A stretch of DNA of 64,000 nucleotides from a virus, in the IMG/VR virus record IMGVR_UViG_3300010885_026736, positions 1 to 64,000 of that record, one strand, 5' to 3'. The notes beneath the pieces were generated by a model that did no database searches, was not told the DNA's origin, and saw only the letters and a list, made by a program, of their open reading frames with translations. The number at the start of each line of letters is the position of its first letter. The stretch's first letter is position 1. Below are positions 32,490-41,838 of this stretch, piece after piece. The translations under genes were made by a program, and so were the position numbers.

Positions 32490-32509
32490 GATGACCTCTG
32501 AAATGAAAA

Positions 32510-32531
32510 GAGGGAGGATTGCTCCTCCCTC
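32510..32531 (-). terminator. Hairpin after hsp20, in the endolysin leader
   Basis: On the minus strand GAGGGAGGA-GCAA-TCCTCCCTC (9 bp, GCAA tetraloop) is followed by TTTTC. It lies downstream of the hsp20 stop and also downstream of the late promoter, so it can end early hsp20 mRNA and form the 5' hairpin of the late endolysin mRNA. Confidence 0.65.
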
Positions 32532-32533
32532 TC

Positions 32534-32541
32534 TATTTATA
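32534..32541 (-). promoter_or_regulatory. T4-type late promoter TATAAATA overlapping hsp20 stop
   Basis: The TAA stop codon of hsp20 is embedded in an exact TATAAATA about 45 bases upstream of the endolysin ATG. Confidence 0.6.
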
Positions 32542-33016
32542 GTTTTAAATCTTCTGACAGGAACTCAGGCGGTTTCGTCAGGTCATCATCAATCTTAATT
32601 TTTTTAGGTTTTTTGCTATCTGGGATAACATGTTCTAAGAAGATCTTCAGCATACCGTTTACCAGTTTTGCATTTCTAATCTCAACATTATCAGCTAAAG
32701 TGAATTGACGAGTAAAGACTCTGTCAGCAATTCCTTTGTGAATGTATGTTTTTTCAGAACCATCTTCTAGAACTTTATCTAGAGTTTCATATTTGCCTTT
32801 GACTTTCAGAATGTTATCTGCAAGTTCAAGTTCAATATCATGTTTACCAAATCCAGCTACAGCTAGTTCTATCAGATATCTTGTATCATCAAGTTTACTA
32901 ATGTTATAGGGGGGATATCCTGTTACCTGTTTAGCTACTGAAGCATGAGCTTCTTCTAAACGACGAACTGTATCTTCTAATCCGATAAAGAAAGGATATG
33001 AGTTAGTTAATAGCAT
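32537..33016 (-). CDS. hsp20: Small heat-shock protein Hsp20 (alpha-crystallin)
   Basis: 159 residues with the alpha-crystallin domain at about 38-140. It has PPYNISKLDDTRYLIELAVAGF (start of the domain), IELELADNILKVKG, HKGIADRVFTRQFTLADNVEI (the IA.R.F.R.F.L pattern) and NGMLKIFLEHVIP (the GxLxI motif). It is an ATP-independent holdase that keeps unfolded proteins soluble. Such genes are characteristic of marine T4-like phages. AGGAGG before ATG 33016 sits in a ROSE-like hairpin, suggesting temperature control. Confidence 0.92.
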   Translation of the reverse strand: MLLTNSYPFFIGLEDTVRRLEEAHASVAKQVTGYPPYNISKLDDTRYLIELAVAGFGKHDIELELADNILKVKGKYETLDKVLEDGSEKTYIHKGIADRVFTRQFTLADNVEIRNAKLVNGMLKIFLEHVIPDSKKPKKIKIDDDLTKPPEFLSEDLKL

Positions 33017-33021
33017 GAATG

Positions 33022-33074
33022 CCTCCTGTTAAGCAAGGGTTGAATGTTCAGGATCCCGAAGCAACCCTGAACAT
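33022..33074 (-). promoter_or_regulatory. Structured hsp20 5' leader, ROSE-like RNA thermometer candidate
   Basis: Two hairpins are visible on the minus strand. The first (33044-33074) is ATGTTCAGG...CCTGAACAT with a TTCG-capped inner part. The second (33023-33036) pairs TTGCT with AGGAG across a TAAC loop, so the SD AGGAGG is sequestered. UUGCU facing AGGA is the core of ROSE thermometers of small heat-shock genes. Confidence 0.5.
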
Positions 33075-33076
33075 TA

Positions 33077-33104
33077 TATATATGCATTTATTTGTTTTTT
33101 TCAA
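33077..33104 (-). promoter_or_regulatory. Sigma70-type promoter TTGAAA-16-TATATA for hsp20
   Basis: TTGAAA (33099-33104) and TATATA (33077-33082) with a 16-base spacer; other -10 registers in the TATATATAAT run are possible. It would start the hsp20 leader. Confidence 0.55.
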
Positions 33105-40972: not shown

Positions 40973-41838
40973 TAGGTACCCCAAGCGTTTTTGTAAAGTG
41001 GAACTTGAATACGAGGACTAAATCTAAACCCGTTATCCCTGCAATAGTCAGCAACGTTACGTTCATTCTTCTCATAAGAAGATGCTGTGCCGCCAACAGG
41101 CATTAGATATACAGGAACATTTACATTAGCTGTTGAATACGCAGAAACTGCATAGTTAACATCTTTAATGTCTTCTTCAGTTGATACAACAAACTTTAGG
41201 TAAACGTTACTATTAGGAATTTCAGTATATTGCTTAACAACATTTGGACAAATAGCCTTTACCCAATCTTCACCTGATGAAGGCAACTTTGCTGATACTG
41301 AGAATGTAATTCTGATATCACTAGAAATGCCTGCTAAGAAATTTTGTAGATCAGAAGTTAATAGTTGTGTACCATTTGTTTCAAATGTAATATCTGTTAG
41401 ATGCATATGACGAGAAGAAATTTCTTTGATGAGAGCAGGATATGCTCTTTGCCAACCTAGTAGTGGTTCACCGCCTGTGATGATTAGATGCTTATCAGGA
41501 CCAAACTTTCCATCAGGAAGCATCTCCTGCATCTTGTCAACGATTTCAGAAATTTCCATGAAGGGAGAAAGATCTTTGAACCGTGGATCCCATGATGCAT
41601 AGGAGTCACATCCTGTATGAACAAGAGGTAGTTCTTGATATGACTTGTATGGATGAAACTCATGAAGTTGTGCTACGGTATCACGTTCACCTGATGCCTG
41701 ACCACGCTTCATACCAAATCCTGAGCATGTAAAATTACAGCCAAAAGTTCTTAGAAATACAGAAGGTACACCGACAAACATACCTTCACCTTGTAAGCTG
41801 TAAAACAGCTCTGATACTTTAATCTTCACGATGCCCAA
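40972..41838 (-). CDS. queE: QueE, 7-carboxy-7-deazaguanine synthase (radical SAM)
   Basis: 288 residues. LFYSLQGEGMFVGVPSVFLR is the QueE N-terminal signature, LIITGGEPLL the radical-SAM GGE motif, and FETNGTQ the substrate strand. Candidate iron-sulfur ligands are Cys34 and Cys38 (GCNFTCSGFGM) and Cys77 (HTGCDSYASWD), i.e. C-x3-C-x38-C rather than the usual CxxxCxxC. It rearranges carboxy-tetrahydropterin to CDG. Overlaps queD by 20 bases. Confidence 0.9.
   Translation of the reverse strand: MGIVKIKVSELFYSLQGEGMFVGVPSVFLRTFGCNFTCSGFGMKRGQASGERDTVAQLHEFHPYKSYQELPLVHTGCDSYASWDPRFKDLSPFMEISEIVDKMQEMLPDGKFGPDKHLIITGGEPLLGWQRAYPALIKEISSRHMHLTDITFETNGTQLLTSDLQNFLAGISSDIRITFSVSAKLPSSGEDWVKAICPNVVKQYTEIPNSNVYLKFVVSTEEDIKDVNYAVSAYSTANVNVPVYLMPVGGTASSYEKNERNVADYCRDNGFRFSPRIQVPLYKNAWGT

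Follow-up and report, generated by a model that had tools for sequence, protein, structure and literature searches.

A ROSE-like two-hairpin leader upstream of hsp20 in T4-type phages

How a phage that carries its own small heat-shock gene controls the supply of the encoded chaperone is the question raised by the leader of hsp20 in IMGVR_UViG_3300010885_026736, a 69-kb phage record of T4 type from IMG/VR, nearly all of which (positions 1 to 64,000, hereafter the window) was analysed. The hsp20 gene is a cyanophage core gene (PMC3037559) for which a role in capsid maturation has been proposed, and its control is not known. An initial annotation of the window had suggested a ROSE-like RNA thermometer in front of this gene. 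The leader carries an element with a structure backed by covariation, nearly universal before hsp20 in the phages examined, specific to that gene (and one dnaK) and matched to a verified Pseudomonas family. In our view the hsp20 mRNA probably opens with a ROSE-like thermometer made up of two hairpins, of the type found in Pseudomonas (ROSE_3), a reading in which the heat response is what we infer.

The hsp20 leader of the window

The placement of the element before a phage hsp20 is borne out by the Pfam assignment of the downstream gene, and because hsp20 runs from 33016 to 32537 on the minus strand, the ROSE-like finding concerns that strand, on which the letters given in the initial annotation are correct. 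The features of the locus are as follows.

33014 to 33082, minus strand: whole element as matched by R1, a covariance model trained on phage leaders only, and by R2, a clade-left-out model from whose training set the window, L001 and L021 (its nearest relatives) were omitted
33043 to 33075, minus strand: hairpin I, with a 10-bp stem, a C(UUCG)G apex and one bulged G, from the fold and the covariation of relatives
33022 to 33038, minus strand: hairpin II, comprising the anti-Shine-Dalgarno (anti-SD) strand CCUUGCU (33038-33032), the loop UAAC (33031-33028) and the Shine-Dalgarno (SD) sequence AGGAGG (33027-33022), with a bulged G at 33034
32537 to 33016, minus strand: hsp20, the controlled gene, encoding a 159-aa alpha-crystallin small heat-shock protein (Pfam HSP20, E 8e-16)
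33073 to 33104, minus strand: AT-rich promoter-like stretch TTGAAA...TATATATAAT, one mismatch from the T4 late TATAAATA and scoring 9/12 for sigma70 and 9/12 for sigma32

Hairpin I (33075-33043, minus strand) reads AAUGUUCAGG-GUUGCUUCGGGAU-CCUGAACAUU, and its apex region, GUUGC(UUCG)GGAU, is a variant of the GAUGCC....GGGUC that occupies the same place in relatives and in ROSE_3. A CAAC spacer separates it from CCUUGCU-UAAC-AGGAGG, of which UUGCU-UAAC-AGGAGG spans 33036 to 33022 on the minus strand, and CAUUC lies between the SD and the start codon, the ATG at 33016. The UUCG-capped hairpin that had been described as lying just upstream is thus present at 33075-33043, but it is the conserved hairpin I and not a separate thing. 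Two hallmarks of ROSE-like thermometers are found here together, namely a position in the 5' untranslated region before a small heat-shock gene and, within the 3'-proximal hairpin, a U(U/C)GCU motif whose imperfect pairing with the SD leaves a G bulged. Of 200 dinucleotide shuffles, 199 fold less stably than the minus strand (z -2.66), and nearly all of this extra stability derives from hairpin I; the SD hairpin by itself is weak (-1.7 kcal/mol) and is absent from the minimum free energy structure. A structure on the plus strand was also considered and rejected, its stability being no greater than that of shuffles.

Conservation, covariation and specificity among phages

The regions upstream of hsp20 were read in 20 close relatives from IMG/VR (41-87% identity), 80 further loci and 12 named phage records. 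The motif N-T-Y-G-C-N...GGA[G/C] lies just 5' of the start codon in 110 of these 112 leaders, so that a check for related phages lacking the UUGCU/AGGA pairing found it in essentially all. In the two exceptions by pattern, L109 and L031, the start codon was called wrongly, within the leader or beyond it, and both carry the element; all 112 informative loci, from cyanophages, Pelagibacter and Methylophilales phages and the jumbo phage PA5oct, have the leader. The order of promoter, hairpin, short spacer, anti-SD and SD is constant, and across 80 aligned non-redundant leaders the U(U/C)GC motif is invariant at its T, G and C, conservation at these letters exceeding that of the SD. L001 and L021 have a different hairpin I stem sequence that nonetheless pairs, and both keep GUUGCUUCGGG and CCCUUGCUU/ACAGGAGGCA. 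Two loci merit separate mention: in L109 (NC_015280, P-HM1) the annotated GTG start of hsp20 falls within hairpin I, the real start being an ATG downstream, after AGGAG; and in Pseudomonas phage PA5oct (L112), a jumbo phage of another family, the element stands before hsp20 beside a gene annotated as ClpS.

Compensatory changes in related phages, which had been named as a test of the proposed pairing, were found for both hairpins. The covariation score of hairpin I is 0.80, compared with 0.23 in shuffled data (reached in 0 of 500 shuffles), and no slid version of the stem comes near. Since only sequences with 4 or more pairs and a loop of 4 nt entered this test, the percentage paired is inflated. 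For hairpin II, a register with a bulged G (U-A, C-G, [G], Y-G, U-A, C-G, N0-N6) is paired in 92.7% of cells and the G-G register in 73.1%. The initial annotation had taken the G-G register to be the exact ROSE geometry, a claim that did not hold, since covariation favours the bulged G, the form described for ROSE-like elements (PMC11342760). The closing pair N0-N6, in the window C33038-G33022, is C-G in 32, U-A in 24 and A-U in 4 of 79 leaders (60/79), and on a tree of 181 Hsp20 proteins the two positions co-change on 15 branches where 4.1 are expected; as about half of these co-changes are A-A to or from C-G, the pair is optional and not strict. Thermodynamic compensation between the arms was not detected, swapping of 5' arms among leaders having shifted the mean energy and its spread only slightly.

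The element is also highly specific for its gene. R2, built because the E-values of R1 are circular for its own training sequences, scores the element of the window at 47.4 bits (E 2.3e-8), and chance pairing is thereby rejected. With R1 the hsp20 leader is the sole match at E<=1 in the whole 69-kb window record, and each of 20 whole phage records has a single strong match, at hsp20, which rules out a generic translation-start feature of these phages; T4, KVP40 and Aeh1 have no R1 match below E 0.09. A DNA pattern blind to Hsp20 gave 120 viral matches, and in 103 an Hsp20 reading frame comes next. Ten of the remaining matches have an SD, mostly where the gene is cut by contig or stretch ends. 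In one of the ten (L241, G042:45428-45495, minus strand, 51 bits) the gene behind the leader is dnaK/HSP70 (Pfam E 6e-181). The same 70-kb virus record has another copy at 41527-41594, before hsp20, followed by a reading frame that is ClpS-like by eye, and the two loci are a possible phage heat-shock regulon. Separately, the record G002 holds a second, weaker copy (L374, 58251-58333, minus strand; R1 E 0.004, ROSE_3 E 5.6e-4), and the open reading frame after it is short (MFNFKSVVDQVATATK...) and phasin-like by eye, with no significant Pfam match.

Upstream of the leaders, sigma70 scores are raised over shuffles (9.03 versus 7.93) and sigma32 scores less so (7.92 versus 7.31), and 46% of the stretches lie within one mismatch of the T4 late TATAAATA, compared with about 13% in shuffles. 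Because the stretch of the window scores 9/12 against both consensuses, the suggested independence from host sigma32 is unsupported; a scanner with stricter rules reported no promoter at 33073 to 33104. As for the genomic setting, the DNA polymerase of the window is about 50% identical to cyanophage DNA polymerases, and RegA and clamp-loader genes lie upstream of hsp20, regA being two genes away. Right behind the hsp20 stop, at 32509-32532, is a 10-bp GC-rich stem that is terminator-like mostly on the plus strand, the nearby genes being on the minus strand.

Relation to known RNA thermometers

The Rfam model ROSE_3 matches the leaders of Melnitz (34.1 bits) and DSL-LC03 (30.6 bits) over the full length of the model, with both hairpins aligned, and on 49 phage records it gives 13 matches at E<0.01 per genome, of which 12 are at hsp20. 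In reverse, R1 finds 11 of 13 tested bacterial loci of ROSE_3 type (Pseudomonas-type ibpA leaders) at E<0.1 or close to it, three such leaders scoring 55-66 bits by Rfam. The ROSE_3 layout of two hairpins, with GAUGCC....GGGUC in hairpin I, is likewise present in the relatives, the window having its variant apex. The ROSE-like nature of the leader is therefore strongly supported by the motif, the two-hairpin layout, the covariation, the reciprocal ROSE_3 matches and the specificity for hsp20.

In Pseudomonas, two-hairpin leaders of this type have been proven to act as thermometers that induce with heat: hairpin II melts and hairpin I does not, and removal of the G opposite the SD together with a U-to-C change locks the gene off (PMC3669281). 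With the Pseudomonas ibpA ROSE_3 element (RF02523; PMC3669281) the phage leaders share the two hairpins, the GAUGCC....GGGUC hairpin I with an unpaired G, the U(U/C)GCU anti-SD with a bulged G over AGGAG, a leader of about 60 nt and a small heat-shock gene. They differ in being phage-borne and AT-rich, in a hairpin I stem free to vary in sequence and, in many copies, in a sigma70 or T4-late type stretch upstream; the window copy differs further in its UUCG apex and scores below ROSE_3 detection. A leader in the betaproteobacterium Polynucleobacter yangtzensis (L267:7789-7864), also before hsp20, scores 40.7 bits with R2 and 33.5 bits with ROSE_3. It is intermediate between the phage and Pseudomonas copies, a possible link for gene exchange. 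The element may have travelled with its gene between phages and Pseudomonas-like bacteria.

Thermosensing leaders occur in other phage genomes, the lambda cIII mRNA being a phage RNA thermometer. The SP-beta prophage gene blyA carries a FourU thermometer (PMC10586365); this and cIII involve other motifs and genes (lysis and lysogeny, not chaperones) and are not ROSE elements. The E. coli ibpA leader (ROSE_2, RF01832), which serves the same protein family, ends in an SD hairpin, TTCTCGCTGATTTCAGGAGC, with the same motif, but is longer and more complex, and self-repression by IbpA is known there. ROSE-G elements of ABC-transporter genes (PMC12857270) share an anti-SD G opposite the SD but have a CUGCU motif with two opposing bulged Gs, and serve other genes. 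The cyanobacterial hsp17 thermometer (PMC4477652) likewise controls a small heat-shock gene, cyanophages having the ROSE type instead.

Proposed thermosensing and its alternatives

In the thermometer that we favour, hairpin I would form at the 5' end and remain folded, and the anti-SD CUUGCU of hairpin II would pair weakly with AGGAG around the bulged G, masking the ribosome-binding site as long as protein stress is absent; heat would loosen hairpin II, ribosomes would bind and the Hsp20 holdase would be made during infection. That temperature, and not solely the level of Hsp20 protein, is the signal, and how large its effect would be, we infer. Several observations weigh against this reading. 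No phage leader reaches the ROSE_3 gathering score of 43 bits, the best attaining 34.6, and ROSE_3 has no match to the window copy at E<=10; Rfam ROSE (RF00435) and ROSE_2 (RF01832) also have no match at the window leader, which is a full-scoring member of no Rfam ROSE family. The covariance search proposed with the initial annotation thus succeeded for 12 phage hsp20 leaders by ROSE_3, but all fall below the cut-off and the window copy is unmatched. (Other Rfam matches at the window site, to sau-13, SNORD15 and CrcZ, are far under the cut-off.) The energy model gives little temperature dependence for the window leader, but the same holds for Pseudomonas leaders of the verified family, so that it counts neither for nor against. 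The advantage of heat control is not obvious either, many hosts living in thermally stable waters.

The alternative with most to be said for it, albeit an unlikely one, is that the leader is chiefly autoregulatory, Hsp20 binding its own 5' untranslated region and repressing translation until clients titrate it, as with E. coli IbpA, which cannot bind its mRNA or repress itself without R93 and an aromatic residue at position 34 (PMC10474464) and also needs K98. Position 34 is aromatic in 181/181 phage Hsp20s and position 93 is Arg in 176/181 (Y and R in the window), and RNA-protein recognition would be in keeping with a leader that stays constant while the protein family varies. However, both residues sit in generally conserved regions of the fold, position 98 is not basic in most phage Hsp20s (K in 32/181, Q in the window), and one phage has the leader on dnaK as well. 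Under autoregulation temperature would act only indirectly; the two mechanisms are compatible, and autorepression by Hsp20 is plausible as a second layer over thermosensing.

It is improbable that the leader merely stabilises the mRNA through hairpin I and sets a low, constitutive level of translation with no sensing at all. UUCG-capped 5' hairpins commonly stabilise mRNAs, and hairpin II is weak by the energy model, but such a role leaves unexplained why U(U/C)GC is near-invariant and co-changes with the SD flank, and it does not account for the specificity for chaperone genes or the match to ROSE_3. We give almost no credence to the notion that the conserved CUCGCUUAA block is an operator for DNA binding or for another protein, such as a Pho box or a RegA site. 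It draws on the proximity of regA and on a 2024 study of cyanophage S-PM2d, in which ATTCAAACTCGCTTAAATA upstream of hsp20 was listed among putative Pho boxes. In that study PhoB failed to bind the site, on which ground the Pho box is rejected here, and hsp20 was not P-responsive (PMC10976474). Covariation of paired columns implies an RNA, and whereas RegA acts on many early genes, the window record holds the element a single time. The ATTCAAACTCGCTTAAATA of S-PM2d is the anti-SD strand of the leader element.

Our literature search, the coverage of which was incomplete, found no earlier report linking ROSE elements with phage hsp20. We tentatively propose, at somewhat short of even confidence, that a ROSE thermometer of their own is a core regulatory RNA in T4-like phages infecting aquatic bacteria, including cyanophages whose studied hosts use another type of thermometer. 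It would define a small viral heat-shock regulon (hsp20 and, in one phage, dnaK) that responds to heat or protein damage without relying on how the host controls transcription. The leader would offer an explanation for the 'Pho box' of S-PM2 that PhoB does not bind, and the ROSE class would extend to a large set of viruses. If the thermometer reading is true, very abundant marine phages would adjust their chaperone supply through translation in response to heat or protein damage, and phage yield would be tied directly to water temperature.
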